This document shows positions 15,299 to 57,807 of a DNA stretch of 64,000 bases, one piece after another. The DNA is from Voacanga thouarsii (taxonomy: Eukaryota > Streptophyta > Magnoliopsida > Gentianales > Apocynaceae), in NCBI GenBank assembly GCA_026120185.1, contig JANUWF010001475.1, forward strand, positions 682,001 through 746,000. The letters run 5' to 3'. The notes under the pieces are model-generated. The model worked only from the letters and a program-made list of their open reading frames with translations. It was not told the origin of the DNA and did no database searches. Position 1 is the first letter of the stretch; every line of letters begins with the position of its first letter. The position numbers were made by a program, and so were the translations under genes.

Positions 15299-15306
15299 CG
15301 TTATCA

Positions 15307-15380: not shown

Positions 15381-15399
15381 TACGCATTTATTGATCTCT

Positions 15400-16257: not shown

Positions 16258-16554
16258 GCATTTAGTTGAATTGTATCAAGCTTCATTGAAAAATAAAAAT
16301 GTGGAAGCAAATTTTTCTCAACATCCAATAAATAATGCTGAGGATGACGATAGTGATCCTGAAGATCTTAATATCAATATTACCCATATGGATGTATCGG
16401 ATTTTTGAACACCCGGACGGTAGGATAGACCATTTAATTGGTGATGGCGGTGTCCAAAAGAACTAAAGCCTCACCACTGATATTTTTGTATTTTCATTTT
16501 CATTCTATTCTAATAATATTTACGTTTACATATATATATTTGTGTTCGGATAGG

Positions 16555-19500: not shown

Positions 19501-20063
19501 TCTCGGATTATTTTATTCAAATAAAACCGAGTCCAACATTGATAGGTTATGCGAGATCTTTGGTTATTTATCGATCCACATAAAGCACGTTCTCAAACGG
19601 GCTATCTATTTACATGTGGAAATACTTGCTATATCATGGCGTTCTACGAAACAATCTATAGCGACTACTTCTTCAAATCATGCTTGAAATTATAGCCATT
19701 CATGAAGCAAGTCGAGAATGTGTATGGCTAAGATCCATGATTCATTATATCCGAGAAAGTTGTGGATTATCATCAATCAAAGGTATTCCAACTCCTCTTT
19801 ATGAAGACAATGCAGCTTGCATAGCTCAATTACGAGGAGGATATATTAAAGGAGATCGGACAAAACATATTTCACCAAAATTCTTCTTTACTCATGAACT
19901 CCAGAAGAAAGGTGAAATTGATGTGCTACAAATTCGGTCATGTGATAACCTCGCAGATATTTTCACGAAGACTTTACCGACTGCAACATTTGAAAAGTTG
20001 AGATATAAAATCGGTATGCGTCGGTTTAAAGATTTAAAGGAATCATCTCATCAGGGGGAGTAA
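16555..20063 (+). pseudogene. copia-1 pol (protease-integrase-RT-RNase H), many frameshifts
   Basis: Domains appear in Ty1/copia order but in shifting frames. The protease site DSGTTHT is near 16585, and an integrase zinc-binding HDRLGH segment is near 17005-17030. The integrase core and C-terminal pieces span about 17190-17860. RT starts near 18440, has KARLVARGFSQ at 18618-18650, and has YVDD near 19036-19050. RNase H spans about 19520-20060 and ends HQGE. At least six frameshifts or stops separate the pieces. The polyprotein is nonfunctional as read. Confidence 0.88.
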
Positions 20064-20187
20064 TAAATGGACATATAGAATAGTGTACTCTTTTTCCTTC
20101 ACTAGATTTTTTTCCCACTGGGTTTTTATCTAGTAAGGTTTTAACGAGGCATATTCTTTATGTAATGGATGGACATCCAATGGGGAG

Positions 20188-20529
20188 TATTATGAATTAT
20201 TGGAATCTTTATTAATTAGTGGAGGCTCCACTAATTATGGATTTATGTGAATTATTAGAAGATTTTTATGGATGTCCACCATTTAGTGGAGACACCACTA
20301 ATTAAGATTAGTGGAAGATGATGTATGCCATGATGTAATCCACTAATTAGAGCTCTATAAATAGAGCTATTCTCTAAGCTTGTAACACACCATTATTTTG
20401 TGAAAGAAAGATTAGTAGAGAAAATTGTGAGAGAAAAGAAAGAGAGAAATTCTTGTGCAAAATAGTTAGAGTTTTATTAGTGTGTAGTGTGAAGATTTTA
20501 TTCTAACACTACCCTAATTTTTTATAACA
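20188..20529 (+). repeat. copia-1 3' LTR
   Basis: 342 bp, the same length as the 5' LTR. It starts TATTATG directly after the purine tract TGGGGAG and ends TTATAACA before ATAAT. I count five differences from the 5' LTR. Confidence 0.92.
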
Positions 20530-32877: not shown

Positions 32878-34722
32878 TGTAAATACCCAATTCAATTGAT
32901 TATGGATTCTGTATTTTAATCGACTCATAAAGTGATTTTTTTTATTATGACCCATGAGATAACTCATAGGTTTTAGGAGTCATGAGAGATTTAATTAAAT
33001 TGAGGGATGTGTTTGTTACTTAATGTTTTTTAAAGTTAAACCTACGCCTTAATCTAAACGACGTTGTTTGGTTTTATTATCAGTTGCCCAAAGCAATCAT
33101 TCAAGAGTTCTAGACTCTGGGGAAGAAAGCTTTGGCTTGCTTCAATCGTGAAAATGAGTTCTATTGGCTTCGACTATTAAATTAGTTAGAGATTGAGGAG
33201 TAAATATTAGGAGGTTCTCTTCCTCTTTATTTCTGAAATTCTAGATAATAAGGTTAATTGATTCATTGGGTTTTAGTTCCTTGGATTGATATTGATATTG
33301 TGTGGTTTGATATTAGGAAGCGATTGTGTAGAGTAATTAACCCGGATTGGACATATTAGTCTGACTTTTGAGGTAAGTAGTTCAGGCATTTTCTATTTTT
33401 CAAAATATTTTACAATTTATATTTTTCGTATAGAATTTGGGAATTAAGTTTGGTTATTTTATTCTCATTTTGAATCATAGTATCACGTGATATGTGTTTA
33501 ATGGCTCATGAGATTAAAGAAGGAGAGGAAAAACATGTTCTGAAATTTGTTTGTGTGACTGAAATCCCTCTCGACCAATAAGAAATATAAGTCTGGCTTC
33601 CCAGACGTGATAAATAGTTAGGACTGTTATCAGTGATCCTTCTCTTAATTTGAGATTCATGAGTCTTTGTTTGTTGTATCTTCAATTCTGATCATGATGT
33701 TGGGAGAAAAAAAAAAATGAAACGAAAAGGGGTGTGAACTTCTATTGATTTCATTGCCTGGTGATTTGCAGCTTTTCGGTTGCTATACGTTGGGGCATCT
33801 GATGTCTCAAAAAAAAAAAAAATCCTTTTGGTTTTGGGATGTTGACCGCAAAAGCATTTTTGCAAATGATGAGGGTCATTGCTTGGACAGTATTCATTTA
33901 AAAAAAAAATCCAAATTATTTACATTATTTTCCCTGTATATAATACTACCCTAGCAGAAGATGACAAAACAGAAAATGGACCAACATGCTTGGTTTCTTA
34001 AATATAATAAGCATGGTGGTTTTTTTCAAATTGTTTTGTAGCGTCTGACTTCCTTACCTATTTTTGGGCTTAACATACTTTGCTTTGAATGAAATTAAGG
34101 TGATTAGTTTTAATTTGGAATTGAATTATACTTTTATTCTATTTTTATTTTTATTATTTTTTTATCTAGGTGATAGCTTTGTTTTATTTATCATTAGACT
34201 AAGTCCTATATTAATTGTATAAAAAAAAAAAAACTCTGTTCCATCTAATTGTTGGGTACTATTCGATGTGTTTTATTGAAGGATATTATAGGTAATATTA
34301 TCTTTCCCAAGAAGATGTTTGGACTACTTATTGGGCTAGTGTAGCTTATTCCATTTAACATTTCGCATATTTTGATCAAGAATATGAAGAAAATTGTGCA
34401 GACGGATGTGATTAGACTACGCTTTTAGATTGATTGGCATTTTGAGAGTTTTTACTTATTATGATTTTTACTTTAGTTTAGACAGTGTTATTTGCGTTAA
34501 TTATTAATTAAGGTTGAGTACGACATTGGTTATATTAAAGATTTTATATTTTGTTCATGAAATTTTATTTAAGAATGTATGTTTTTTTCCCCCCTTTCCT
34601 TTGGAGGTGATGACTTCAATTAAAGTGATTTTTTTTTTGTGTTAGAGGCTTAGTGTCTTTTTTGAGATGCTGCCGTATAATGTTTCGGGTACGGACTCGG
34701 GTTCCGACTTCAGGACGTTACA
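32878..34722 (+). repeat. gypsy 5' LTR (1845 bp)
   Basis: Runs from TGTAAATACCCAATTC to GACGTTACA. It aligns with the 3' LTR at both ends but contains about 1.15 kb (33313-34466) that the 3' copy lacks. Confidence 0.88.
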
Positions 34723-34911: not shown

Positions 34912-35217
34912 TGTTATAAAATTTTGATAGTGTCAGAATAAAATCTACACAATAAAAAAATTCTAACTATTCTTTGCACAAAAATTTCTTCAAATTTCTC
35001 TCTTTCTTTTCTCTCATAATTTTCTCTCACAATTCTTTCACAAAAATAATGGTACATTTCAAGTTTAGAGAATAGCTCTATAACTATTTATAGAGTTCTT
35101 ATTTAGTGGAATACATCATCTTCCACTAATATAAATTAGTAGTGTCTCCACTAAATGGTGGACATCCATATAATTCATAATTAATGGAGCTTCCACTAAT
35201 TCAACATATTTATAACA
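34912..35217 (-). repeat. copia-2 3' LTR
   Basis: 306 bp. On the minus strand it runs TGTTATAAATATG to AATTTTATAACA and is preceded by a purine tract ending GGGGG. It differs from its partner by indels, including a duplicated ATAATTTTCTCTC-like block, so the two copia-2 LTRs are more diverged than those of copia-1. Confidence 0.88.
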
Positions 35218-35484
35218 CCCCCATTTGGATGTCCATTACATAAAGAATATGTCTCGTTAAAATCTTATTAGATAAAAACCCAGTGGAAAAAAATATTAGT
35301 GAAGAAAAAATATTGCACTATTCTATACGTCTGTTTATTGCTCCCCCTGATGAGATGATTCATTTAAATCTTTTAACCGATGCATACCGATTTTATATCT
35401 CAACTTTTCAAATGTTGCAGTCGGTAAAGTCTTTGTGAAAATATTTGCGAGGTTGTCACATGACCGAATTTGTAGTATATCAAT

Positions 35485-37513
35485 TTAATCTTTCTTCTGG
35501 AGTTCATGAGTAAAGAAGAATTTTGGTGAAATATGTTTTGTCCGACCTCCTTTAATATATCCTCCTCGTAATTGAACTATGCAAGCTGCACTATTTTCAT
35601 AAAGAGGAGTTGTAATATCTCTGATAGATGATAATTCACCACTTTCTCGGATATAATGAATCACTGATCTTAACCATACACATTCTCGACTTACTTCATG
35701 AATGACTATAATTTCAGCATGATTTGAAGAAGTAGCTGCTATAGATTGTTTTGTAGAACACCATGATATAGCAGTATTTTCACATATAAATAGATAACCC
35801 GTTTGAGAACGTGTTTTATGTGGATAAGATAAATAGTCAGCATCTACATAACCTATCAATGTTGGACTGATTTTATTTGAATAAAATAATTCAAGATCAA
35901 TTGTACCTTGGAGATATCGAATGACTTATTTAGTTTCATTCCAATGTCGTCGTGTTGGTGAAGAACTAAATCTTGCTAATAAATTGACAGTAAAGACAAT
36001 ATCATGTCGTATATTATTAGCAAGATACATTGATACACCAATTGCACTGAGATATGGTACTTCAGGACCAAAGAGTTCTTCATCATCTTCTTGGGGTCGA
36101 AAATGATCTTTATTCACATCTAATGACCGGACGATCATTGGAATACTCAATGGATATGCTTTGTCCATGTAAAATTTTTTTAGAACTTTTGTTGTATATA
36201 TTGATTGATGAATAAATGTTCCACTTTTCAGATGTTCAATTTGTAAACCAATGCAAAATTTAGTTTTACCAAAATCCTTGATTTCGAATTTTTTTTTTAA
36301 ATAATCAATTATTTTTTGGAGCTTTCAGGAGTTTCAATAAGATTAATATCATCAACATATATAACTAATATCATAAATTTAGAATCAGATTTCTTAATAA
36401 AAACATATGAACATACCTGGTCATTGTTAAATTTCGCTTTCAATAAATATTCATTAAGACGATTGAACCACATGCGTCCAGATTGCTTTAGGCCATATAG
36501 TGATTTCTGCAACTTGATAGAGTAATTTTTACGAGGAGAATGTTTATATGCTTCAGGCATGCGAAATCCTTCGGGGATTTTCATGTAAACATCATTTTCT
36601 AAGTTTCCATACAAGTAAGCAATGACAACATCTAATAGGTGCATATCTATCTTCTCATGTACTACCAAATTGATAAGATATCGGAGTATAATAGCATCAA
36701 CAATAGGAGAATAAGTTTCATCATAATCAATACCTGGTCTTTGTGAAAAACCTTGGGTTACTAACCGTGCTTTATAGCGTACGATTTCATTATTTTCATT
36801 GCGCTTTCACACAAATATCCATTTGTAGCCAACAGGTTTTACACCTTCTGGTGTTCGACTGCAGGTCTGAAGACTTCACATTTTGTTAGTGCATTTAACT
36901 CCGATTGAATCGCATCTTTCTATTGTAGCTAATCTTTTCTATGTCGACATTTATCAACTGATATTGGTTCAGGATTATCATTATCCTGTATAACATCAAG
37001 AGATATATTGTATGTAAACATATTATCAATAATTGTTTCTATCCGATTCTAACTTCTACTGGAAGTGGTATAATTGATAGAAATTTCAGTGTTATTTTCA
37101 TCAACTTCTGGTTCTTTGTCATCAATTCTCTCTTGGTCTTTATCATTCATTTCTTCAATATGATCATCTGGATCATTTAATCCTCTTTTCTTTCGAGGAT
37201 TTTTATCTTTAGAACCAAGAAGTCGGCCACGCTTCTGGCGTGCTTTTCACTCAACAATTATAAATATAATCTTTTGTTCTACTGGAACTTCAATTTAAAT
37301 GGGAGTATTTATAGCTGGAATATACAATTTTGTAACTCTTTTGGAGTCAACAAAAGCAGCTGACAGTTGATTTGCAATACTTTGCAAATAAATTATCTTT
37401 TGAACTTCAAGTTCACATAGCTTGTGCGCGGATCAAGATAATTTAGTGATATTATCCAAGCAAGATCTTTTTTACACTGTTTCTATTCTCCCCCTAAGTT
37501 AGGGAATAATGAT
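35485..37513 (-). pseudogene. copia-2 reverse transcriptase-RNase H remnant
   Basis: The minus strand carries RT and RNase H matching copia-1: an EKIDMHLLDVVIAYLYGNLEND segment, YVDD near 36350, and RNase H with SWCSTKQSIAATSSNHAE near 35700-35780. Frames are broken around 35860-35925, 36170-36300 and upstream of 36670. Homology to copia-1 stops at about 37514, inside the segment corresponding to copia-1 17870. Confidence 0.85.
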
Positions 37514-37689
37514 TTCACAAGAGAATAATGGAAAAAAAAAAAAAAGAAATGTAAGAACATTATGAGTAATACTACATACAGAACAAGTAGGAAATGTCAA
37601 GAAATATATTAAAAAAAATCTCTATATTATTACTATTTTTTTTTTTGTTTCTCACTCTTCTCGGTACCATCTTTTCTCCTTCCTCCTCG

Positions 37690-37807
37690 TCTTTTCTTCT
37701 CATCGTCCCTCCACCTATCATCTATCTCTTCTTCTTCCTATATATATATAACTATATATATTTCAGTCATTAGTCATTAGTAAACTTAAAAAAACCACAA
37801 ATCAGAG
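37690..37807 (+). promoter_or_regulatory. Possible promoter/leader of the RKD gene
   Basis: A pyrimidine-rich CT tract is followed by CTATATATATATAAC at about 37738-37752, roughly 60 bp before the ATG at 37808. This could be a retained native promoter with a TATA box, but AT repeats are common here. Confidence 0.35.
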
Positions 37808-39090
37808 ATGGGGACTTGTAATTCATTTGAGACATGGTCAAATTTTGAATTGGTTTCTCAAGAAGAAGATTTTGATATGTTTTCCTTTCCAAACCAACCG
37901 CTTTCTCTTAATTTCAGATGAGATACTTTTGAGGGATTCTTCTTTTTTTAGTGTGCTTGATAATGAAATTAAACTCTCTTTTGGTTTGTTGTGATGTAAA
38001 TCAATGGAAATTCTGAATATGCTGCTTTGGATTTTCAATTTGATCTACCCATTCAAAAGACTGCTTTTGATACTGTTCCTCTGAATGAGAATATACTTGT
38101 GCATGATCATTTCTACTCCTTAATGAATTTTGAACAAAGCTAGAATATGATTCAAGGTTATCATACATTCAAACATGAATTTTGAATGGTATTACCCTTA
38201 CTGATATTGTTTTTCTTTTTTTAAGAGAAATAATGAGTGGTATTGACAATGAATTCGGAGTGAGTAATCATGAAATGCATCTTGAATTTAATATCGAAAT
38301 TCAATATATTGTTTCAGACAAAATTCCTATGGAGAAGAAGATGATTAAGAGGCAGAGAAATGAGAAGGGCAATAGCGCTAAGACACTATCAAGAGCAACC
38401 ATTTCAAAGTACTTTTACATGCCAATCAAGAGAACGACCAAAGAACTGAATATTGGCTTAACATTTCTCAAGAAAAGATGTAGGGAGTTAAGAATTCGTC
38501 AATGGCCTCACAGAAAGTTAATGAGTTTGGAGACCCTAATCAAGAATGTTTAGGTTCTCTCTCACATACTTATAAACTTACGTCACGGATTTGTAAGCTA
38601 TGAAGAGTAAATAATGACTGGAATGAATGTATCTCCACCGATGATATGTAGAAATCCCTCCGATTTACAGAAGATGCAAAATGAAGAAGAAGAAGGACAT
38701 ATGGCTGAAAAGAAGTTGAGAGAAGCCATTGAGATACTGGAACGTGAGAATAAGTTGATGGAAGAAATTCCTAATACGCGGTTGGAGGACCAAACACAGA
38801 GACTGAGACAAGTATGCTTCAAGGCCAACTATAAGAAGAGAAAACTCGAGGGGATGATAAAATCTTAAGACTCATTTCGCAGTAACTTCACGGCTAATTC
38901 TGCTGCTAGTCTAGATTCTGGCCAAAGGGAAAAGAAAGAAAAGAAGGATGTCAAAAATGAGGATCTGAAATCTATAATTGCTAACTATTTGTCTTCCTCT
39001 AATGCAAATATTGAAAAAGAAAAATTACAAACATTCATCCAAAATTTATTAGCTCTATTGAAAAAGAGCAATTACAAGCATTCATCTTAA
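37808..39090 (+). pseudogene. RKD-type RWP-RK transcription factor gene captured in copia-2
   Basis: RKD proteins are plant nuclear DNA-binding factors known from egg-cell and embryo programmes. ATGGGGACTTG at 37808 opens an acidic N-terminal segment that reaches a stop at about 37917. Matching coding fragments in other frames continue to about 38150. The RWP-RK domain lies in one open stretch ending 38553: LSRATISKYFYMPI, then TFLKKRCRELRIRQWPHRKL. A second stretch to 38868 has the RKD C-terminal coiled coil (KKLREAIEILERENKLMEE) and LRQVCFKANYKKRKL. A gap at about 38545-38660 with GT and AG edges suggests a retained intron. After TAA at 38866-38868 the same frame stays open to 39090. The N-terminal stops suggest a decaying gene, but the domain itself looks intact. 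Confidence 0.8.
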
Positions 39091-39259
39091 AGCTCACATG
39101 AACACCAGTGAGATGAATGAAAGAAATACAAGTGAACACCAAACTTATGATCAAGACGATATATATATTTTTTTCTGAACTGTTAGTAGTAATGTAGTAT
39201 ATTGACATCCGAATGTAACATCGCAAAGATTTGATGCTTATTATTATTGGAAATATCAT

Positions 39260-40030
39260 TTTCCCTTAGTATCTTCTCTGTTCTACATCAGGTGGCCAGT
39301 ATTTCTCACAATTTGATTATTACTGTGATAAGAAAAATATCGAGTGTGTCCATGACCATAACCACGGCTACTGCCACAATTACTACTATAACGATGGCTT
39401 CTGCTGGAGCAAACAACATTTACTTCTGAGAGTATTGTTGAGCTAATTGGTCTGACTTCATGATTTTTTAATAATAACTCATTATTTTTCTCTATAATGA
39501 AGAGGGTAGTAATTAAATCTGTAAATTTTGTATACCATTTTTCTCGATATTGTTGCTACAAGACAATATTCGAGGTATGAAAGATGGAGGATGTCTTCTC
39601 TAACATATTTTCATCAGTAACTTTTTCTCCGCATAATTTTAATTGAGATGTAATTTTATACATCGCGGAGCTATATTCATTCATGGTTTTAAAATCTTGC
39701 AACCTCAGGTGCAACCATTCATACCGTGCAGTGGGTAGTACGACTATCTTCAGGTGGTCCAATTTTTCTTTTAAATTTACTCACAGAAAATATGGATATT
39801 TTTTTGTAAGATATTATATTTTCAAATTTTCGTCGATATGACAACGGATAAAAATCAAAGCTTTGGCCTTTTGTTGTGCAGATGCACTATTATTTTCTTG
39901 AATAATTTCACTAAGGCCTTCAGCATTTAAATGCATTTCTACATCGAGAACCCATGATATATAATTCTTTCCAAAAATATCAAGGGCCACAAATTCGAGT
40001 TTAGCAAGGTTAGTTATAGGGATCAATAAA
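39260..40030 (-). pseudogene. copia-2 gag remnant
   Basis: The minus-strand sequence matches copia-1 gag: LARLEFVALDIFGKNYISW-like start (the ATG reads ATA), the KAKALIFIRCHIDENLKI segment, then YEWLHLRLQDFKTMNEYSSA. It degenerates through the glycine-arginine region at 39300-39430. A frameshift lies near 39780-39830. Homology ends at about 39255. Confidence 0.85.
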
Positions 40031-40119
40031 TGCGTACTTATTTTCTGGCTTTTGTAATAGTAGAGACCTGTGCTTTAGTCTTCTGGCTTTTATAACGGTA
40101 GAGACTCGTGTTGATAACG

Positions 40120-40406
40120 CATTATGAAATTTTGGTAATGTTAGAATAAAATCTACACAATAAGAAATTTCTAACTATTATTTGCATAAGAATTTCTTTA
40201 AATTTCTCTTTTTCTTTTCTCTCACAATTCTTTTACAAAAATGATGGTACATTTCAAGTTTAGAAAATAGTTCTATTTATAGAACTCTTATTTAGTGGAA
40301 TACATCATCTTCCACTAATATAAATTAGTGGCATCTCCACTAAATGGTGGACATTTATATAATCCATAATTAGTGGAGCTTCCACTAATTCAACATATTT
40401 ACAATA
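40120..40406 (-). repeat. copia-2 5' LTR
   Basis: 287 bp, minus strand, beginning TATTGTAAATATG at the 40406 end. The leader next to it (about 40040-40119) carries the same duplicated GAGTCTCTACCG..AAAGCCAGAAGAC motif as copia-1. Confidence 0.85.
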
Positions 40407-40484: not shown

Positions 40485-41729
40485 ATGGCTCGTGAGGGAA
40501 GGCATGTAAGCGATGGTGAGGGTCTTAATAGTGAATCAGATGACATGAGCGTGCCACTGTAGAATAGGGACGAAGGATACTACGTCAACCGACAAGTGGA
40601 ACCAGTCAACATGTGTCGATGCCACTACCGGGCTTCCTCTACAAGTTATACCAACAACTATTCCTGGGCTAACGTCATCTGAATTAATGGTGACTTTAAA
40701 TATGATAGCACAAGTTATACAAAATCAACAACAAGTGCAGCAAGAACAACAGAGATTGCAACTAGAGCAGGAACAGAGGCAACAAAGACTGACATTGGGG
40801 TCTAGAGCACATTATGAATGACTTAAGAAGGTGGGAATGCCTACTTTTGATGGAATTGCAAATCCGTTAAAGACGAGCAAGTGGTTGGCAGAGTTAGAGG
40901 AAAATGTTGAGATCCTAGAGATACCTGATGATGTCAAGCCAAAAATTGTACCTCCATTCCTAGTTGGAGATGCAAACTAATGGTGGAAATGGACAAAACT
41001 AGCGTATACTCAAGATGAGAGATTTATGACTTGGGGGTATTCAAGAAGGCATTTCTCAATCACTACTTTCCTGTGGCAATCAGATTACAAAAACAAAATG
41101 AATTCTTTGATTTGATACAGACAAAAGGGATGAGTGTTGTTCACTATGGATCACGATTTAATTCTTTGGGACAGTTTGCACCGGAGATCATGGCCAGTGA
41201 AACACTTAAGCTGCAACAGTTTGAAAATGGATTGCAAAGGAGAATTAAGAATCGACTATCCTCGATACCCTCGAAGAACTATAAATAATCCTATACCAGG
41301 TGTCTACACATTGAGGCAGAGATTAAGAAAGGTGATGCTGAAAGGGAGAAGAAGAGACTGAAACCTATATTCAGTCAGGGCCAAGGTTCAAGACCAACAG
41401 GACCCCCGGCAGCAAAAAGGCGTCCATTGCCCAAAACTACTCCGGCAGTAGCTTCTTATGATAAAAAGAAGCTTTGTGAGACTTGTCAGCGAATACATCC
41501 CGGTGAATGTAGATTGAAGATTGAGACTTGTTTCAAGTGTGGAAAGATAAGGCATCGTATTGGGGAGTGTCCGATGATGGCTCAGGAAGCATCAAGACTT
41601 GCTACTCAACCGATCACGAGGCCAGCAGAGCAAAAAAAGCTGAATGCTAGGGTTTTTGCGCTAACTCAACAAGAGGCTGAGACTGCGGATGATGTGGTTA
41701 TAGGTATCATACTAATTAATTCTATATAA
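40485..41729 (+). pseudogene. gypsy gag with zinc knuckle, broken
   Basis: ATGGCTCGTGAGG at 40485 opens the capsid gene but meets TAG at about 40560. The retrotransposon gag domain is readable at about 40960-41290 (KKAFLNHYFP, then FNSLGQFAPEI). After a frame change, the CCHC knuckle CFKCGKIRHRIGEC lies at about 41530-41570. A further stop at 41727 separates it from protease. Confidence 0.85.
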
Positions 41730-41732
41730 GCT

Positions 41733-44700
41733 TTGACGCTCTTTGATTGTGGTGCCACCCATTCTTTTGTATCTCAACGTTTTGTCAAAACTCTAAAATT
41801 AGCCCCTACCTCTTTAGTTGATCATTTTCATGTATCTATTCATAGTGAAAAAGTTTTAGTCTCCAAGCTTGTGATAAGGGGATATAGGGTAGAGATTGGA
41901 AATGAAGTGTTAGATGCTGATCTCATCCATATTCCAATGGTGGATTTTGATGTGATTCTCGGAATGGATTGGCTCTCTTGCAACTGTGCAATGATTGACT
42001 GTAAGGGCAAAAAGGTAAAATTTTCAATTCCAGAGAAAGACGAATTCTATTTTCTGGGAGGTTTGGAGAAGTGGGCGAGCAAGTTGAAACCAATAATATC
42101 AGCCATAAAGGCATGAAGAGATCTTCAAAATGAATGTGAAGGTTTCTTAGCTTACGCATTGAATACTCAGAAGAAGGAGCAAACATTTGAAGACAAACCA
42201 GTAGTATGTGACTTTTCAAATGTATTCCCAGAAGAATTACCAGGACTACCCCCTGAGCGAGAAGTAGAGTTTGAGATTGTTTTGATATCGGGAGCTGAAT
42301 CAATCTCGAAGGCTCCGTACAGAATGGCACCTGCTGAATTACGAGAATTAAAAACACAACCGCAATAATTATTGGATATGGGATTTATACACCCAAACGT
42401 GTCCCCGTGAGGAGCTCCAGTTTTATTTGTGAAGAAAAATGATGGTAGTATGAGACTCTGTATTGACTACCGTGAATTTAATAAGACCACCATCAATAAT
42501 TGGTACCCGTTACCCCGGATAGATGATCTCTTTGACCAGCTGAAAGGTGCTTATGTGTTTTCCAATATTGACTTGCGCTCTGGATATCATCAGTTAAGAA
42601 TTAAGGCAGAAGATATACCCAAAAGTGCTTTCCGAACTCGTTATGGATATTATGAGTTTATAGTCATACTATTTGGAATGACTAATACCCCAGTAGCATT
42701 TATGGACCTGATGAACTGGGTCTTCAAGCCTTAGTTAGATAAGATTGCAGTGGTATTTATTGATGACATTCTGATATATTCATCGTCCGACGAAAAGCAT
42801 GTGGAGCATTTGGCAGTGGTTTTGCAGACCTTGTGGAAGGAGAAATTGTACGCGAAATTTAGTAAGTGTGAATTTTGGCTCAGGAGTGTTGTTTTCTTGG
42901 GTCATGTCATATCTGAAAATGGAGTAGTTGTAGATCCTAAGAAAGTAGAAGCCATAGTAAATTGGGCTAGACCAACTAATGCATCTGAAGTGAGAAGTTT
43001 CTTGGGGTTAGTTGGGTATTATCGGAAGTTTGTGGAGGATTTTTCAAAAATTTCAAGACCGTTAACCCGACTTACCCAGAAAAAGACCAAATTCGAGTGG
43101 AATTCAACATATGAAACTAGTTTTCAGGAGTTGAAGAAAAGGTTGACGTTCGCACCTGTACTTACACTACTATCTGGATCAGGAGGTTTTGTAATCTATA
43201 GTGATGCGTCAAAGAACGGTTTGGGTTGTGTGTTAATGCAGAATGGGAAGGTTATAGCCTATGTGTCAAGACAATTAAAGCCTTATGAGCAGAATTATTC
43301 CACTCACGATCTTGAGTTAGCTGTAGTGATTTTTGCTCTAAAGATCTGGAGGCACTACTTGTATGGAAAGCCTTGTGAGGTGTCTACGGACCATCAAAAT
43401 TTGAAATATTTGTTCACCTAAAAGGAATTTAATATGCGTCAGCGGAGATGGCTAGAGCTGCTTAAGGACTATGATCTGAAGATCAACTATCATCCGGGGA
43501 AAGTCAACAAAGTAGCTGATGCATTGAGTAGGAAGATCAATAATACCCTAGCAGCTATGATCACTCATCAGAGACAATTGATATTAGAATTTGAGAAATT
43601 GGAAATAGAAGTAGGAGGGTCTGCAAAAAGATATGTAGCAGCTTTGACGTTGCAACCAACCTTGGTGAAACGAATAAAGACGACTCTAGGTATGGATGCT
43701 AGTTTAGAGAAGAAGAAGAAGGAAGTTTGTGATGATCAGCAAGCAGATTTCTAAATTCATGATGACGGGAGTTTGAGGTTTAGAGGAAGATTATGTGTAT
43801 TTGACCATCTAAGTTTAAAGGCTAAAATTTTGAAAGAAGCGCATAACTCTAAGTTGTCGGTACTAAAATGTATAGGAATTTGAAGAGAAACTTTTGGTGG
43901 AGCAGAATGAAGAGGGAGATAGCGGGATATATCTCTCGGTGTATAGTATGTCAGCAAGTGAAGGCCGAACACCAAAGACCAGGAGGATTGCTAAAACCTT
44001 TGGAGATATCTATATGAAAATGGAAGCATATCACTATGGACTTTGTTGTTGGGTTGCCAAGATCAAGGTTGGAGAAGGATACTATTTGGGTAATTGTAGA
44101 TAGACTGACTAAATCCATACATTTCTTGTTAATGAAGGCTATAGCAACAATGGATGAGTTGGCAAATATGTACATGAAGGAAATAGTGCGATTACACGAC
44201 ATACCAATTAGCATTATGTCTGACAGGGATCCACGGTTTATTTCACGATTCTGGAAGAGCTTTAATAAAGTTATGGGGACTACAATATCACTTAGTACTG
44301 CATTTCACCCTCGAACTGATGGGCAATCCGAACGTACCATTCAAACGTTGGAGGATATGTTGCGGGCATGTGTGATGGATTTCAAAGGTAGTTGGGTTGA
44401 TCATTTAATGTTGGTAGAGTTCTCTTATAATAACAGTTATCAAACAAGTATTGAGATGGCTCCATATAAGGCATTGTACGGGAGGAGGTGTAGGTCACCG
44501 GTGTGCTGGGATGACGTTGGTGAGAGGATAATTATTGGACCGGAACTAGTACAAATTACCTTGCAGAAAGTACCATTGATCCGCGAGCGAATTAAGACAG
44601 CGCAAGATAGACAAAAGAGTTGGGCAGACAGCAAAAGGCAACCATTGGAGTTTAAGGTGGGAGAGAATGTGTATATTCAAATTTCTCCTATTAAGGGGGT

Positions 44701-45117
44701 GATGAGATTTAGAAAGAGTGGAAAGTTAAGTCCCCGTTTCGTAGGGCCTTATGAGATTCTAGAAAGAGTTGGGGAACTCGCTTATTGTTTGGCTTTACCA
44801 CCGGCACTGTTTAAGGTGCATGATGTTTTCCATGTTTCTCAATTGAGGAGATACATTTCAGATCCAAGTCATGTGTTAGAGGCTGAATCATTGAAAGTGA
44901 TTGAAAGCTTGTCGTACGCGAAGATTCCTTTGAGGATCGTAAATCGTAAGGAGTAGGTATTGCAAAGACGTATTATCCCCTATGTCAAGGTCCAGTAGAC
45001 AAATTATACGCCTCGCGAAGTTACATGGGAATTGGAGGAGGACATGCGCAAGAAGTATCCATCTTTGTTTGACTTGGAAGGTACGTATAAGTTTCGAGGA
45101 CGAAACTTTTGTAAGAG
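41733..45117 (+). pseudogene. gypsy pol (protease-RT-RNase H-integrase), broken
   Basis: Protease has FDCGATHSFVSQ near 41740, with Cys where Ser or Thr is usual after the catalytic Asp. RT spans about 42300-43100, with [21 protein letters not shown] and FIDDILIYS (42756-42782). RNase H follows, with [13 protein letters not shown] and [11 protein letters not shown]. Integrase covers about 43760-44950, with VIVDRLTKSIHFL, SDRDPRF and HPRTDGQSERTIQTLE supplying the D,D,E residues. Stops at about 42115, 42366, 42733, 43419, 43752 and 44954 break the frame. Confidence 0.9.
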
Positions 45118-45125
45118 AGGTGGAA

Positions 45126-45825
45126 TGTAAATACCCAATCCAATTGATTATGGGTCCTGTATTTTAACCGACCCATAAAGTGATTTTTTTATTATGACCC
45201 ATGAGATAGCTCATAGTTTTTAGGAGTCATGAGATATTTAATTAAGTTGAGGGATGTGTTAGTTATTTAGTATTTTTGAAAGTTAAACCTCCGCCTTAAC
45301 CTAAACGACGTTCTTTGATTTTATCATCAGTTGCCCAAAGCGATCATTCAAGGGTTTCAGACTCTGGGGAAGAAAGCTCTGACTTGCTTCAATCGTGAAG
45401 GTGAGTTCTATTGGCTTCGACTATTAAATTAGTTAGAGGTTGAGGAGTAAATATTAAGAGGTTATCTTCTTCTTTGTTTTTGGAATTCTAGATAATAAGG
45501 TAATTGATTCATTGGGTTTAGTTCCTTAGATTGATATTGGTATTGTGTGGTTTGATGATTTTTACTTTGGTTCAGACACTATTGTTTACATTAATCTTAA
45601 GATTGAATAAGATATTAATTATATTAAAGGTTTTATATTTTGTTCATGAAATTTCATTTTAAGTAAGATATATATATATATATATATATATATTTAAAGT
45701 AATAGAACTCAATTAAAATAATTTTTTTAAATTAGAGACTTATTATCTTATTGAAGATATTGTCGTGTAACATTTTGAGTAAGAACTCAAATTTTATTTC
45801 GAATTTCAAATTCGGGTCGTTACCA
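45126..45825 (+). repeat. gypsy 3' LTR (700 bp, internally deleted)
   Basis: It starts TGTAAATACCCAATCC directly after the purine tract. It matches the 5' LTR to about GTGTGGTTTGAT (45550) and then jumps to the part equivalent to 34467, ending GTCGTTACCA. The deletion junction shares a short GAT(T) match. An (AT)n run lies at 45669-45692. Confidence 0.87.
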
Positions 45826-45995: not shown

Positions 45996-48900
45996 TCATG
46001 TTTGTCGCTGGGCGAAATCTGGCACACAAGGGCTTTTGATTAGCATGCTCGGTCTTCTTCGTAACCCGACAACAATAACGCTAATATTGTCTTGGCTACC
46101 TCGGGCAATTGCTAGTTCGGCCAATACCGCAGCCGCATCTGCAGCAGAAACTCCATTTTCAGTAGTTTCACTTGTTCTTTTTCCATTCACCATCTCTTCA
46201 CTATCAGCCGTCTTTATTTGACCATCTAAGCATCTTCTCACCACATTGCATGCAACGTCGTTAGAAACCACGTCCCACAAACCATCGCTAGCTAAGATCA
46301 AGAACTCGTCTTCGCTAGATCTTTTGTTCACTATGACTTCGGGGTCTGATATCACGTATGGTTTCAGATAGCGATCCCCTATGATCCAATTTCGAGTTTT
46401 CGTGAGTAGAAGGGCATATACAAAAGAAAATTAATTACTCCATTTGTCTACTCTACAAGCGGAGGGAGAGATAGTACAACAACAACAAATTAAGTCTTAA
46501 TTTTAAATAACTTGGGGAGAGAGAGAGTAAAAAATAAAAATAAAAATAATTTTATAATTTAGATGAAATTTTAAAAATACTTCTTTAAAAAGTTTCAATT
46601 TTGTTAAAACATAATTAAAATTTTCAAAAATTCTGGAAGGTAACCAATATCGGCCTGACTCTACTAGGTGAGAGAGAAAATGTAACATGAATAGAGAGGA
46701 TGTATCTGTACACATACCTATGGATCTGGACGTGGCAAGTACTCCCATGACCCGCTGGCCATTCCAATTTATGACTCTCCCTCCAGAGAGCTCTATTCTC
46801 TCCAACTCTTCAAATCTGTCAGGCTGGGCAATTGTGAAATGCCCGTCAGCAGAGTAATACTACAGTTGAAAAAAGAAAATACTACAGCAGCGCCGCCTTC
46901 TCTGTCTCTCTCTCTCACACACACACAACACACACACCCCACGCCTCTTTTTTCAGCGGAAAAGGTAAATTTATAAAAAATTTTATATACATCCAATATA
47001 CGTATATTAAATATATTAATTAATTATATTATATATAATAAATATTATTTATAATTTTATCTATAAATAATATAACCATTGAATGCACCAAAAGACATGC
47101 ATGAAATTTATTTGCATACATCAATAATTAATATTTTTAATAAAAAAATTAAACTATTTAATCTCTAAAACATAATATTTGTAATATTTTTGTCTTTAGT
47201 ATTTTTTTTTACCATTATGATCTTTAATAATTTTTTTACCATTATAATCCATAATTTTTTATTTTTTTACCTAAAAATCAATCATTATGATCCCTAAAAA
47301 TAAAAATATTAAAAACCATAATGGCAAAAAAAATCATTAAAGACCATAATAATAAAAAAAATATTATAAACACCGATATTACTTTTTAAGATTAGTCACA
47401 CTAAACTTCTTAAATTTCTCTATCTTTAAGTCTCTCAACAAAATCACAAATCAAATCTCTCTGCTCTATCTTCCCTCCTCTCACCTTTAATGTCAAAAAA
47501 AATAAAAAATTTCTTAAATAATTAATCACTCTTGTACTTAATAAATTTAAAGACATATAATAAAAAATATTTATTAATTTGAATATTCTTAATTTGTATT
47601 TAAATAATTAAAAAATTAAATAATATGAAATTAAAAAAATACTTAAATTTCTCCAATCTTCTTATTACGAATAGAAGCCCGTACTGAATCAAGCCTCCCG
47701 TGACCTAAGGTGAATCTCTACGTCTAATTATTGAGAGAGAGAACCACTAGAGAAAATTTAAGGCATCTAAAGTACCTCCAGCACAAAGATGTAGGTGCTG
47801 ACTCAATTCCTCCCGCTGCCACTACTTGTTGTTATTAAAATGAAAACCTTAATGTTAGATGGTTATGCCTGAAGCTAAAGCTAGATTAATTGGATGCTTG
47901 GCTCATCAGGAAGGTCTATCAAGGCAGAAGGCTGCAAATCGCTGGGTCACCCAAGGCTTAAATTGTAATATAGATCCGATTTACAAAGATCATATATTAA
48001 AAAATTATATTTTATATAATAAAAATTATACAATATAATCTCGTGAATTCACATATCTATAATTTCTCCACCACCCTAGCCGATGATCATCATCGGTGCA
48101 GCAGAGGAGAGTAAAGAATGTTATCGGCAGTATATCGCTGTTCTCCTCCTCCCTCCTCCCCTTCCCTTCATTTCAAACAAATTTGCAACTACAAATTATT
48201 CAAGTTTTCCATGTAATCTATTAAAAATATTATAGTATTCCTCATGAAAATATATACTATACCAGGCGAAGGAAAAAAGTATTTGGACAGAATCCAAGAA
48301 TCACATAAAATCATGCACCTTTATCGAATAAGAGGGCATGTAAAATTGTGGGCAGCTACCTTATGATCGTTGGACAAAGGCACGGCAACTCCTCCTCGTG
48401 AAAGCACAGCTCTAGAGTCCCCACAATTCGCAACCACCACATCTTCCTCTCCAACCGCCGCCACAACAGCTGTGGATCCCATTGTCGCCACTGCTGCCCC
48501 GTTATTGTTCACCTCCTCATCGATCTTGTCAAAGCTTTCCAGCATCACCTTCTGCCAGTTTATACTGCCCCCAGAGCTCTCATCTTCTTCTTGCAGTACT
48601 CTCTCGGCTAACAGCCTGTGCAGGCGGTCACGGCAAGCATGCGCTACACGTGACCCTCCATGACCATCGTAAACTCCAAAAAAATCATATCTTTTTGATC
48701 CTTTTGTCAAAAACCCCAACTCCACCGCAACTGCATCCTCCATTTCTCTCCTTCTGCCTATCACAGAAATCGAGCCATGTGACCAGTATCTAACATCCTT
48801 TGTGTTCTCTCTCGCTATATTATTGTCATCTACAAAAGTAGATGCCCCGACAATAACAATATCTTCCTTCGTTAACTGATTATTTGAAGGTCGTCTGGCA

Positions 48901-49172
48901 AACGATAAAGACACATCTGCTGCCGCTTTTCTCTCTGAACATTCTTTTTCTACTTCATCTGATTGTTTGCTGTCCACTAATTCACCGTTTCCTGATCTCT
49001 TCCTCTTGAAAAACCCAGATTGTAATTGGTCCAGCGACTTCGACCGCCGAAGTGCCAATCTTTTGCGTCGTATGCACCTCTGTTTTTCCCCATCTCGTTC
49101 GACGATGGAAGAAACAGTTCTCCGGCAACCAGTCTCCGGCCCAGGAGACGTGCGCCTTAAGTTTTCAATCAT
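45996..49172 (-). CDS. Clade A protein phosphatase 2C (ABA co-receptor type), 3 exons
   Basis: Clade A PP2Cs dephosphorylate and hold SnRK2 kinases inactive until ABA-bound PYR/PYL receptors inhibit them. Exons are 49172-48360, 46823-46718 and 46378-45996, GT-AG, giving 433 aa. A basic, Ser-rich N-terminus precedes the phosphatase domain from about residue 132. Metal-binding motifs are [23 protein letters not shown] (D169, G170), [17 protein letters not shown] and [17 protein letters not shown] carries the tryptophan (about W291) that inserts into the ABA-receptor latch, so receptor inhibition should be possible, unlike AHG1. The [12 protein letters not shown] context resembles HAI-type members, but I do not assign a paralogue. 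Intron 1 is 1.5 kb and holds a hairpin repeat. The gypsy element ends 170 bp past the stop. Confidence 0.95.
47195..47375. repeat. Hairpin-forming inverted repeat in PP2C intron 1
   Basis: The left side (TACCATTATGATCTTTAATA) is mirrored by the right side (ATTAAAGACCATAATAATA), with the centre near 47285. The repeat is imperfect and AT-rich with no coding capacity. It is probably an old MITE. Confidence 0.55.
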
Positions 49173-51964: not shown

Positions 51965-53670
51965 CTAGAAATTTTGATCTTCATTAATATGCTCAATAAA
52001 TACATTAAATCCATTTCCTACAAGAAAATCCACAAACTTAAGCCATCTGTGATGAGATAGCTTGGAGTTAGTCATTTTATTATAAAAGGCGACAATCGAT
52101 TTGCAATCAATGCGTAATGTAAATTTCTTGTTATTTCTGACATGTATGGAAATTTTATTTAATACATAAATACATGCAAGGATTTTAACATCTGTTGCAC
52201 TCACTTGGCTTTTATATAAGCCACTACAATATCCAGCTATTTTTTCTTCTTTTCTGGAGGCTTCTTTGAATGGCTTCCATTTAAGAATTTCTCCCCATCC
52301 TTCTAAACATCCATCAGCTTCTATTACTATGTAAGCTGAAATAGGGGCTAGATCTAATGGTGGAAGATTTTTAAATATTTCTTTTATTTTAGCTACTAAC
52401 TTCCAATCTTGGTCATTAAACTTCCTTTGGCCTTTAATCCTAGTTTTAGCATAGAGTGGTCCTACTAATTTACTATAATTAGGGATATATTCTCTACACC
52501 AATTTAGTAATCCTAAGAAAGATCTTAATGATGTTATATCATTATCAATGATTTCTTTCTCAGCTATTGCCTTAGCAAAGTGTTCTTGTAATTTAATTTG
52601 ACCTTTGCCTATAATAATTCATAAGAATTCTATTTGAATTCTACTAATAGACATTTTATTTTTCGATAGTACCAACCCATTTTTAATGCATTCATCAAAA
52701 AATATTTTTAAATGCTTGATATGATCATTTCTGCTTTGATTAAAAACTAAAACATCATCAATATAGCAGACTACAAATGGATATTTTTTGAATACATTAT
52801 CCATCTTTCTTTGGAACATAGAGGGGGCATTTTTCAGACCAAAGGGCATGACTCCATTTGGTAGCAGTCTAGGGACCACTTTCTTCATGCATAGCTATCT
52901 GCCAAAAGCCTGATTTTAAATCAAATTTAGAATAAATAAGACTACCTTTTATTCTTTGAATTAGCAGGTCTTTATTTGGAATTATATAACTATCTGCTCT
53001 TGTATTGTCATTTAACCTTTTATAATTAAAGACCATTCTACTCTTTCCTCTTACTATTTCACTATGTTTCCTAACTATGAAAGCAGGAATTCTATGAGGA
53101 CTATTACTATTCTGAATTACTTTGAGATCTAGTAATTCTTTGATATGCATATTTATATCTTCTAGGTCTTTAGGAGTATAAGTCATCGCCTTATCCTTGA
53201 TAATTAATTCAGTATTAATAATGTCTAATTTACAAAGGATTTTGTTTTTAGACCAATGTTCTGTGAGGTTTTCTCCAATTATCTTCATGGCCTCTAATTT
53301 AGATAGATTTTGTTCAATATCTGTATGGTTATGTAAAATTCCTAAATTAAAATTTACTTTATTTGAGTCATATGTTGTTTTAATTTTTTCATACAACTCA
53401 TATTCAAAAAAATCATTTTCAATATCATCAAAAGTTTCACCATGCATAATGCTTTCTTGTGGAACTTCTGATTCTATAGAGTTTAATTCTCTGGAATAAG
53501 GTGAGCTAAGGATTGCATTAGCTCTTTTAAAGAAAGTGACCTTATTTCCTTCAACTATTATTCCACCATGAAGATTTTTGATGAAATTCATTCCTATGAT
53601 TAATTGATAATTCATGGAAGATACCCATGTTGTGGGTAGATAGTATTTTTCTGCATTAAATTTTATTGTA
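51965..53670 (-). pseudogene. Endogenous caulimovirid protease end, RT and RNase H
   Basis: The reading runs from the protease C-terminal region (53615-53400) through RT, with a palm segment at 52870-53100 and the YIDD catalytic motif near 52760, into RNase H at about 51965-52250. The frame changes at about 52870-52890 and again between 52205 and 52619. Codon use is AT-rich, like the rest of the insert. As read it is not one frame. Confidence 0.85.
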
Positions 53671-53675
53671 CAATC

Positions 53676-55709
53676 TGAGGGAGACGAAAACAGAGAGCAT
53701 GCACTGGTAGCGTAAAAAATTAAATAGAGAAAAATAAAACCAAGCTTTAAAGGTTATACGGAAGTGTGAAGATCATACATTTGTGCTCCTTAACCCTTCT
53801 AGGTTGAGTAAGAGCGGATTGAACGATTGGAATCGCCTCGCTTTGCCCACTTGAAGAAGCTTCCGATTGAACACCCGCTAGCCTTCTACTCCGCCTTATT
53901 TGCATGAATGCCTAGCTTTCCAGCTCTCGGGATATTCCTCAACCTAACCTCTAGTCGGTGAATACAACAGAGAAGAAGAATGGTCTCAAATCTCCTTGGT
54001 TCACTTGCTATTGGTTAGCAAAGCTCCAAGGAGAAACCAAGAAGAGGGAGGCGTGAGAGAGGGAGCTTACGTGAGGCTCTCCAGAGAGACGTGAGTCCTC
54101 TGTTGGGTAGGGAAAACTAGAGTTTTTCTTTTTCCAAAGAGTTGTTTATTAGTTAGCCAAAATTAGGTCTCTCATTATCTGATAAACATATCCCCGGGAT
54201 TTCAAAACACTCGGATGTTATCCTGAGAATCAGTTTGGCCTAACCCTAAACTCCTCTTAACCGTATCTGGAAAAACCCTAAGGTCCAAGCTATTGGGTCA
54301 GAAAAATATTTATTATTTTCCTTGGACCCAAAAGGCCCAAAATAATAAACATTAATTATTTATTTTCTGGGCTTACATAAATAACCCAATAAATAATTAA
54401 TGAGCCCAAATGAACCAAAATAATTAATCTTTAATTATTTATTTCTTGGGCCTATATAAATAACTCAATAAATAATTAAATATTAATTATTTCCCCTAGT
54501 TTAAGCCCATGTTAATTTTCTAATTATTCATACTGGACCTAGGCCTTAAATAATTAATTAACCAAATAAACTAGATAATTAATTTTCTCTCAACTCCTAT
54601 TTTATTTATTTATTTATTTTATTCCAGTCCAATAATAAATTAGACTTCCTGAATAAAATTAAATAAAATTAAATCATCTTCAACTGAGACCAATTCCTCA
54701 ACCCAAAAGTATTTAGGACTTACAGGTTATTCCGAGGACAAAAAAGACACATCGCCTTGGCTGCTAAAATGACCAAAATATCCCTGCTATATAAATAGAT
54801 GTATTTTGCATTTTAAATATTTCTTAATATCACCATAAGGAAATATTGACCCCAAGGACAATGCTGCATTAGCAAAGTCTCCGACCTATAGGTGAAATGA
54901 CTAAAATACCCCTCTACACATCGCCGTACATTTAGAGAGGAAGAAGTGTACTAACACCCCTCTAAATGACATCTACCATCCTTAGGCTTCTAGTCCAATG
55001 ATCACGACTTCCTGGAGTGTTTCCGCTTTCCAAGGGAGCTACCCTAAAGCAAACATCCAAGTCATGTTTCCCAGGGCTCTGGGCATTTTAGACCATTCGG
55101 ACAACCACAAGGGGCGATATAGTGCAGAAACTATCTTGTACAAGTCTGTCTTAACTAACTAGTCACACACATCCAACATGCAAGTATATTGACCCTACGA
55201 TAGAACCTCAACTATAGCAAATCAAAGTATATGCTTCCAGCTTTGCCAGACCACCAACTCATACTCAAGTCGTAGAGTACTAGTCCACGCTGTAGCGGTA
55301 GTAGTCTAGGTTTCTATCATATAGTACTTTTAGAAACCACTACTATAGGTCCTGTCCTACGTATTCGAAATACGCTTATGTTGTGAAGTGAGTGGACTAC
55401 TCACTGGCTAAAGGTAAGACATTCCCTATTTAGAATTCATAACATAATAACCTAAACATTATGAGATTCCCAGTCCCATCAATAGGTTAATAACAAATGT
55501 TTATGTGTTAAATAACCCGTGATCCATACCTTACTGTGAAAGACCACCATTCACATGGATCACTTATTTAAACACAATGGGTCTGTTCCAAACGAAAATC
55601 GTGCACAAACAAAAAGTAAATTCACAAATAATTTCTGAAAATAATTTCTTTTATTAAAATATTCAATTTTACATCAGAAACCTAGTCTAAGAGGGCATAC
55701 AATCCAACA
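53676..55709. mobile_element. Solo LTR, family L, copy 3, inside the pararetrovirus
   Basis: A 2034-bp segment beginning TGAGGGAGACG and ending ATCCAACA, flanked by CAATC at 53671-53675 and 55710-55714. It has no internal coding region. It is the longest and best bounded copy of the LTR family also seen at 1630-4726, and includes the 545-bp block missing from copy 2. A CTATATAAATAG motif lies near 54788-54800. It interrupts the viral polyprotein within the protease. Confidence 0.9.
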
Positions 55710-55714
55710 CAATC

Positions 55715-57097
55715 TACCAATCTATCATCTAATTTTCTGACATTTCCTATAATGTCAATTACATTTGTTCCTGTATCTGATTTAATTCTATACTTTGGGG
55801 GCACTAAATCTTTATGTATATGAGACATTGTTGCACCCATATCTATTATTGCTGACAAGGTGATGGTGTGTTTGTCAGGAAATTCTATTGTACAAATAGT
55901 ATTTAAAAGATTATTTGACCGATATTTACCTATGGTTAAATTTTCTAGATTTTCAGTAGGTGTAAGAATAGATTCTAAGCTATTTTGTTCAACTTCTTCT
56001 ATTCTTATTCCTTTCTGTCTTCTGTCTTTGTTTTTGCAGATACATTCTCTAAGACTTTCTTCCAAATTATCTATATATTTTTGTAATATTCCTATGGTTT
56101 TGAGGTGAGTATTTACCTGCTGTTTTAGTGTGATTTCAGGTACTTCTTCCTCTTTTTGTTCCATTTTATGACCCATGTCATAATTGAATTTATTATTTGC
56201 ACAAAATCTACATACTGCCAAGTAACAAGTCGTGCAATGTGTTCTATGTTTTTCTATTAAAAATTTAAGGCAAATTTCACACCTATCTTTTATTTTTGTG
56301 AAATCTTTCCAAGTATGTTGACATATACTAAATTTGTCAAAATTTACTTTATACTTATTTTGTAAAAATACTAGGTTATTATCTAAATTCCAGTCTTCAT
56401 TCATGTTTAAAAGATTCATATCTTCAAAATCTTTTAACCTATCTATCATATCAGTAACACTGAAATAACTCATTATGTCACTGTCATTATCTGCTTCATC
56501 CCCATCCAATGAGACAATATCATATTCAGGATCTTCTGACTCATTATTTGGAAATATATTTATTTCAAGAGACTTATATATATTTAACCTATCTCTCTTA
56601 ACCTTTTGATTTCTACATTGGTATGCAAAATGACCTATTTCTCCACAAACATAACATTTACATTTTTTGGGTGGTTTGTGAGTTTTAAATCTCTTAACTT
56701 GACTAGTTCCTGGTCTTCCTTTTTTATATGTTTTACTCCTCTTTAATTTCTTTGTCGTTTCTTCTTTTACATAGGACATAGGAGTATAAATATTCTTACA
56801 ATAATTATAATTCTTAATTTGTCTATCTATCTCCTTTTGAGTGCATTGTTCTTTGAGATAGTTAAACAGGAATTGAATTCCGCTAGTAATACCTACTACC
56901 GGTCTTCTGCCAACAGATTCTTGCCATTTTTCACTAACTACTTTTCCCAAAGGGTTGGGTAATTTTGCAAAAACCTTTTCACTTAGTTCTAGATCCCAAC
57001 TTCTACCAGTCTGAGATGCTAATTCTAAGTATTTTTGACTAAATTTATCCAAGTCTAATAAATTTGGATCTACTTGTAAAATTTCAAGATCTTTCAT
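55715..57097 (-). pseudogene. Endogenous caulimovirid coat protein and protease start
   Basis: An open stretch of about 460 codons on the minus strand. The N-terminal part resembles the caulimovirid coat core. A basic run then leads to the zinc knuckle CYVCGEIGHFAYQC, followed by acidic segments and the second Cys cluster. The protease begins with the active-site region containing IIDMGAT, which has Met where Thr or Ser usually follows the catalytic Asp. The frame is cut by the solo LTR, which supplies the last few codons before the stop at 55682. Confidence 0.85.
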
Positions 57098-57114: not shown

Positions 57115-57807
57115 CTATTTGTCCCCTATAATTATTTGTCTAATTTGACTTGTTATATTTTGGGGATTTTCAGCTAATTCTAGTAATTGTTTATAAGATT
57201 CTGAATATTTTGTTCCCCAGTCAATAAAGTATTTTTTCATAGATTCCAAAAGATTTTCTATGAAGTTTACTACTTGTTTTGTTGTCATATTAAGATTTAC
57301 TCTTTCTAATGCATTTAATGCATCAGCTTCCCATCTATCAATAACTTCTGGCCATTTTTGGGGATGGAATGATGGCAGGATTAAAACACTCCCTCCTTTA
57401 TTTTGGGAAGGTAAATTATAGATATTCATTGGAATATCTGATAATCCTATATTTTTCTTAAAATTGTATACCTTTCCTCCATCCTTAGTTGGCTCTAGTT
57501 TTGAAGGTTCTCTTCTAGGCAACTGAGTGGTTCTGGAAGATGGTACTCCACCTTCAAGCATCTCAACAACTTCATTCATGGGAGGCCGGTCTTCGGGCAG
57601 CATTTGAATGCTCCAAAAGGCTACCATGATCATCTTCTTTAACTTCTTCAATTCTTCAGCGGTGGCATTTTTTATCTCCGTATCCTCTCCCCCTTTCTGC
57701 TGGCCGCAAACCAATTCAGGATAGTGAACTATTGAGCTTATATTTTCAGCACTGTTCTTTATCTTGCCTGCCATTTCCATAAAAAAAAACCCCATAACTA
57801 TAAACAT
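57115..57807 (-). other. Fusion reading frame: kinase C-lobe to pararetroviral sequence
   Basis: One open frame of 230 codons begins in the kinase C-lobe (LPEDRPPMNEVVEMLEGG, at about 57550-57610) and continues without a stop into caulimovirid coat-region sequence. The junction is near 57545-57550, just where the normal kinase tail (PPKPFL-type) should follow. The frame ends at 57115, before a frameshift into the long coat-protein frame. It is a product of insertion; nothing shows it is translated. Confidence 0.7.

Follow-up and report, generated by a model that had tools for sequence, protein, structure and literature searches.

Elements such as Dasheng/RIRE2, LARD and TRIM have LTRs without a full pol and are mobilised in trans by a related family. 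Antisense genes present in many copies of a retrotransposon family have been described in maize Grande (gene23), rice RIRE2, Silene Retand and bean PvRetro13 (PMC7264820). According to the available part of that source, the additional ORFs of the Grande gene23 type are located downstream of pol, before the 3' LTR, and are without similar host genes; the role of antisense ORFs in plant LTR elements is given there as unknown, and some of the proteins are nuclear. Host genes captured inside LTRs are likewise on record, in maize Bs1 (named in PMC7264820), in a rice and sorghum survey in which captured copy pairs expanded along with the element (PMC3726574), and in a review of transduced host genes (PMC13317346); such genes are reported to be single or few in number within a genome and mostly in sense orientation (PMC7264820). 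RWP-RK genes overlap intact LTR elements, with dated insertions, in pearl millet, a grass, where the accessible text of PMC10011142 describes the gene-LTR association but no dedicated RKD-family structure, no replaced pol and no such copy number as is reported below. For elephant grass, PMC10472707 ascribes the growth of the RWP-RK family to genome duplication; its accessible text contains neither LTR nor transpos as a term.

The Ty1/copia family described here, from Voacanga thouarsii, carries an RKD gene of the RWP-RK class. Unlike the Grande gene23 type, it holds its gene between gag and reverse transcriptase (RT), in place of protease (PR) and integrase (INT), and the gene has introns and clear host homologues. 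Unlike transduced genes, the gene is complete, antisense and intron-bearing, and its junction is found in thousands of copies. Unlike Dasheng/RIRE2, LARD and TRIM, the element has retained RT/RNase H and contains a regulatory gene of the host. Our searches of the open-licence PMC literature turned up no description of an RKD-carrying retrotransposon family.

The window, a stretch of 64,000 nucleotides of contig JANUWF010001475.1 within which all unprefixed positions are counted, contains a copia element of 5,495 bp on the minus strand at 34912-40406, with CTTAT as the target duplication on both sides. Its 3' LTR (34912-35219, minus strand, left on the plus strand, with CTTAT at its left edge) is the direct-repeat partner of its 5' LTR (40120-40406, minus strand, right on the plus strand, followed by CTTAT), at a K2P distance of 0.104. 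LTRs with a 5-bp target duplication and a copia-type RT (PF07727, E 1.5e-22, 36309-36668) are the marks of Ty1/copia. The RT and RNase H part of pol, fragmented in this copy, occupies 35485-37513 (minus strand), and truncated gag with its leader occupies 39256-40119 (minus strand); between them, at 37514-39255 on the plus strand, lies a block with an RWP-RK domain (PF02042, E 2.3e-18, 66.3 bits against a cut-off of 29.3). The RKD gene is thus antisense to copia. The first-pass annotation had proposed both the boundaries, LTRs plus CTTAT, and an antisense RWP-RK block between gag and RT, and in both respects it described the element correctly. One capture breakpoint is the RT/RKD junction (37506-37529); the other is at the left end of the gag part, where the zinc knuckle is gone. 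The gag protein match in the window copy contains three stops, and in the RT region no stop is common to half or more of 17 aligned copies in the three frames sampled.

Other features of the window surround this element. Direct repeats at 32878-33236 and 45126-45483, 12.2 kb apart and 90-92% identical, enclose RT- and integrase-like ORFs (read by eye) at 41031-44956, and the RKD copia may have inserted into a gypsy-type element of which these repeats are the possible LTRs. The region 52869-57097 (minus strand), with a caulimovirus coat-protein domain (E 4.7e-24), a zinc knuckle and a weak RT below the cut-off, is by its domain content the remains of an endogenous plant pararetrovirus. Host genes are found at 9018-14126 (a cyclic-nucleotide-gated channel, whose best named matches come from various eudicots), 48321-49172 (a PP2C) and 57115-62602 (receptor-kinase-like frames, recognised by eye).

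A second copia in the window (14957-20529, plus strand, 5,573 bp, its LTRs 98.5% identical) has protease and integrase; it provides the reference for the part that was lost and is a candidate helper family member. The RKD element resembles it at 81% on the gag side and at 87% from RT to the 3' LTR, and the stretch 37515-39258 has no match in it. At the replaced place the full copia has Pol_BBD, SH3_retrovirus and a weak rve match (E 0.059, below the cut-off), as well as a zinc-knuckle motif read by eye. Searches with three of its protease/integrase frames gave no PR/INT match in any of 25 RKD-family loci, namely 21 of subfamily A (the window included) and four partial loci of subfamily B. The unmatched stretch and this count bear out the earlier proposal that zinc knuckle, protease and integrase had been replaced, with element length, as also proposed, nearly unchanged (5,495 against 5,573 bp). 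Because PR and INT match in 0 of 25 loci, the RKD element is a non-autonomous derivative; an autonomous one has all enzymes of the gag-PR-INT-RT-RH series. The PR-INT stretch of the full copia is 97-100% identical at all 40 places scored (its own copy included) out of 2,098 first-look candidates, a pattern indicating that the full family is abundant and young, the product of a very recent burst. Its related LTR, gag and RT sequences make it probably the helper of the RKD element.

The captured gene is complete, with four exons, three GT-AG introns and 1,011 nt including the stop (336 codons). All of its exons are on the plus strand, and the start, stop and splice sites can be followed through 20 aligned copies (L025 dropped). 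Exon 1 (37808-37917, 110 nt, ATG at 37808) has its ATG in 19/20 and its donor GT in 19/20; exon 2 (38005-38156, 152 nt) has its acceptor AG in 19/20 and its donor in 20/20; exon 3 (38225-38553, 329 nt), which encodes the RWP-RK domain (PF02042), has its acceptor in 14/20 and its donor in 19/20; and exon 4 (38671-39090, 420 nt), which encodes a coiled-coil-like C-terminus similar to those of RKD proteins, has its acceptor in 15/20 and its TAA stop in 19/20. A processed transduction, passing through cDNA, has its introns removed, and here three introns are kept. The first-pass annotation had argued from retained introns for capture of genomic DNA and not of a cDNA, and the splice dinucleotides across the aligned copies confirm that the introns were retained.

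The window copy of the gene is dead, with three premature stops and one canonical intron of three (intron 1 has an AT donor and an AA acceptor). An open and spliceable RKD with three GT-AG introns occurs in 3 of 45 aligned copies (L019, L042 and L044); the remaining 42 include some that are cut, such as L032, and the RKD of L046 is open with two non-standard acceptors. The L019 product is 336 aa long, and its best nine database matches, all from asterids, are RKD-like and 46-49% identical over 88-93% of it; none of the best 120 of 768 database matches exceeds 55% identity. Aligned with six RKD relatives, the L019 protein is 47-51% identical, with similarity from the N-terminus on and about 30 C-terminal residues more than most of the six. 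Its RWP-RK domain and its similarity from N- to C-terminus place the gene in the RKD subfamily, on the evidence of L019, the window copy being broken. The length of exon 1 ranges between 107 and 278 nt among uncut copies in L042, L046 and other subfamily B loci, and its repeated motif around NAEDFDMFSFPNQPLLPN is a coding minisatellite in the captured gene.

The 1,742-bp block, used as a query, gave 3,658 first-look candidates in its own genome, of which 40 places were scored (47 aligned pieces, the full-length matches being 81-89% identical). In 20 of 20 loci taken around the next-best matches the block sits inside the same element, colinear and with the RT side, the gag side and the right LTR; the left LTR is absent from the stretch examined in L009, L011, L016 and L028, and L009, L013 and L025 are interrupted by other sequence. 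One of these loci, L016 (C464:1903932-1913431), holds two adjoining RKD elements in opposite orientation. A genome-wide count used the best conserved 24-mer of the RT/RKD junction, nine bases of which are common to the full copia and the remainder block sequence, and which lies within two mismatches in 20/20 copies. With up to two mismatches allowed over the 1.35-Gb genome, it has 1,301 + 1,274 = 2,575 matches, and the reversed-pattern control has none. In the eight other copies inspected, the same two junctions are present, altered by scattered base changes.

Target sites could be compared in the 14 elements (of 21) whose two ends are verified by LTR alignment, a set that leaves out L021 and L026, both missed by the end pattern. 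All 14 are different. The 5-bp flanks are identical on both sides in eight elements, differ by one mismatch in five and by two in one, as against 0 identical and 7 with one mismatch in 182 mismatched pairs used as a control. Fourteen different flanks in 14 elements therefore represent separate insertions, and since independent insertions have the junctions in common, no assembly join lies at them. Two doubts voiced in the first reading, that the block might be found only here and that the assembly might be joined at its edges, are answered by the 20 loci and the genome-wide count in the first case and by the junctions common to independent insertions in the second.

A tree built from 20 copies of the block is star-like, with a median end branch of 0.048 and inner branches of 0-0.009; its bootstrap did not reach stable values. 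LTR K2P distances have a median of 0.104 and range from 0.051 to 0.153 (17 elements; L025 on 200 sites), and the median corresponds to an LTR age of 4.0 My at 1.3e-8 per site and year or 7.4 My at the alternative substitution rate of 7e-9. The former rate is also employed in PMC10011142. The shape of the tree suggests that the RKD family spread as a burst.

A second set of loci, from an RWP-RK scan of the genome, consists of subfamily B (22 copies, selected by RWP-RK domain score) and subfamily C (3 copies). Mean distances are 0.147 between A and B, 0.094 within A and 0.077 within B, where the closest pair differs by 0.018. The capture is older than the A/B split, because the alignments of subfamily B loci L030, L031 and L033 run across the RT junction. 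Residues 1-61 of gag find no match in 4/4 partial subfamily B loci; gag frames are broken in many subfamily A copies too, so broken gag is not peculiar to B. Exons 1 to 4 most often measure 110, 152, 329 and 420 nt in A and 164, 155 (or 164), 320 and 432 nt in B, and the modal introns differ between the two by 4, 1 and 28. In subfamily C the three copies are in agreement on exons 2 and 3, while their exons 1 and 4 share no length.

The same scan bears on the donor. Of 3,618 first-look RWP-RK places 150 were scored, and 26 loci were taken, covering 27 of the 150; 25 have the intron-bearing block and two are host RKDs of another type. Element flanks were seen, among the 25, only in L030-L034. 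No donor RKD was found among the 27 places examined, nor, among the matches listed in a search with a Catharanthus RKD (123 candidates scored of 6,356), was there an intron-bearing gene clearly closer than the element copies. The host RKD-like genes of another type are L029 (C486:91900-95400) and L030:6880-7367, the latter about 3.6 kb from an RKD-carrying element. The Catharanthus query also revealed an intronless RKD group, whose 71 best rows are continuous over the border of the last two exons (for example, query residues 92-291 in 555 bp and 40-288 in 729 bp). These copies are dispersed, 47-72% identical to the Catharanthus RKD and carry stops in 65 of 71 cases; examples in the same genome (G000) are C817:3446967-3447521, C821:3409909-3410637 and C940:783164-783616. 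The group would appear to be a separate, spliced RKD amplification.

Comparison of the subfamilies suggests that the RKD reading frame was kept. Fixed indels between A and B measure 3, 57, 3, 15, 9 and 12 nt in exons (six of six multiples of three) and 1, 5, 2, 6, 8, 8, 23 and 8 nt outside exons (one of eight); the difference has a Fisher p of 0.0023, with the runs 46+11 and 2+13 each treated as one indel (57 and 15), and with the non-coding 6 and 8 kept as two indels, a choice that favours the null. When A is compared in turn with B1, B2 (a split of B made by hand) and C, all fixed exon indels are multiples of three and none of those outside exons is. There is no true fixed stop between A and B, where 3.0-4.3 would be expected; codon 282 was considered as one and rejected, having undergone several changes and reading CAA, CCA or CTA in group A. 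In-frame exon indels and the lack of a fixed stop together imply that the reading frame was apparently held, presumably by selection, while amino acids changed freely. The claim of selection is weakened because subfamily B was chosen by RWP-RK score, so that lineages with a ruined domain would go unseen; five of the six exon indels fall outside the scored exon. The indels are few (six), and exon 1 is repeat-rich.

The substitutions show no sign of purifying selection on RKD amino acids, either within A or in the fixed A/B differences. With the mutation spectrum of the non-coding columns as the yardstick, the observed over expected N/S within A comes to 0.95 (0.78-1.18) in the CDS and to 0.65 (0.42-1.06) in the RWP-RK domain. 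These changes look neutral, as expected for dead copies. Fixed A/B substitutions comprise 48 N and 10 S, a ratio of 4.7 against an expected 2.81 (p 0.076 one-sided, 0.136 two-sided), and a mild excess of amino-acid change in RKD is possible. An MK-like ratio of 2.47 (1.54-4.21), against 1.23 (0.80-1.93) and 0.82 (0.51-1.40) in the wrong frames, was computed on a group of 25 that mixes B and C, and supports only a lack of amino-acid constraint. NG86 dN/dS was set aside because wrong frames yielded similar values: it gave 0.57 for RKD (with an exon model off by one) and 0.46-0.66 for wrong frames or strands, and RT read on the wrong strand gave 0.32-0.40.

Much of this would also fit a gene that is a mere passenger of a well-mobilised element, its in-frame indels reflecting a few lucky master copies and the way in which B was sampled. 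Neutral-looking substitutions within subfamilies, fixed substitutions free of amino-acid constraint, the 42 of 45 aligned copies that lack a fully open, spliceable frame and the ascertainment of B by domain score all speak for such a passenger. It does not readily account for exon indels that are in frame six times out of six, five of these lying beyond the exon by which B was chosen, against one in eight elsewhere, or for zero fixed stops where 3.0-4.3 had been expected, and we hold it to be a possible but rather doubtful explanation.

We think it probable, instead, that a single capture of RKD at the DNA level was followed by spread in trans and by retention of the gene, under selection, as an accessory gene. 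A Ty1/copia lineage would have taken in a complete RKD gene once, along with its promoter side, its three introns and its 3' flank, and the gene, lying antisense, took the place of the zinc knuckle, protease and integrase. That the capture was single is argued by the same junctions in the eight other copies inspected and in the RT-junction alignments of L030, L031 and L033. The antisense orientation, combined with introns and upstream sequence, suggests that the gene came from DNA or from an RNA read through in antisense. One route would need no template switch: if a host RKD locus lay antisense between 5' and 3' copia fragments, read-through from the 5' LTR over that locus would yield an RNA in which the introns of the antisense gene stay unspliced. 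The resulting chimera, retaining LTRs, part of gag and RT/RNase H, would be incapable of polyprotein processing or integration alone, and would depend on PR and INT provided in trans, the probable supplier being the full copia family to which it is closely related. The "gene-carrying, trans-mobilised" family of the first-pass annotation accordingly stands as gene-carrying and multi-copy, while its trans-mobilisation is deduced from the absence of PR and INT. Diversification into at least three subfamilies, with the RKD frame kept by selection, would then make RKD an accessory gene and not cargo alone.

RKD genes have egg-cell roles. RKD4 has been used to start somatic embryogenesis in Arabidopsis (PMC9731469). 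The accessory gene could accordingly be imagined as a selfish totipotency factor, the retrotransposon family carrying and maintaining its own regulator of germline or zygote, an extension that we consider unlikely. The RKD protein, made from its own opposite-strand promoter, would promote an egg-cell or embryo-like state, or else would open the element's LTRs in those cells whose new insertions are inherited. The fast amino-acid change in RKD would then reflect conflict with host control, and the intronless RKD group and the LTR-associated RWP-RK expansion of pearl millet would be parallel recruitments.

The block might instead act as RNA, by forming dsRNA or by serving as promoter for an antisense transcript with a tuning effect on the element, with no part for a protein. 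The gene is indeed antisense to gag-pol, and a role of this kind is discussed for antisense ORFs in PMC7264820, but such a role needs no indels in multiples of three, no open frame of 336 codons and no GT-AG introns, and we regard it as improbable. Still harder to credit is a second mobile element, or a gene carried by a Helitron or MULE, that nested in copia and then spread: the block boundaries are sharp and gene fragments within other transposons are common, yet simple nesting would not delete zinc knuckle, PR and INT, and a scan of two ORFs of the block matched no family other than RWP-RK. A single late insertion or an assembly artefact, for which nothing was found in favour, has practically no chance of being correct and is ruled out by 2,575 junction matches against a control of 0 and by distinct target sites in 14 of 14 verified elements.

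A captured and probably retained RKD gene has consequences beyond this genome. The accessible text of PMC7264820 argues that antisense extra genes are unlike captured host genes, and the RKD family is a counter-example, one with a traceable kind of origin in which an intron-bearing host regulator is found at thousands of places, with evidence for the keeping of its frame. The element is a case for the entry of an intron-bearing gene into an RNA-based element, and RWP-RK gene counts may be inflated by transposons. It also makes testable whether a retrotransposon gains from carrying an egg and embryo regulator.
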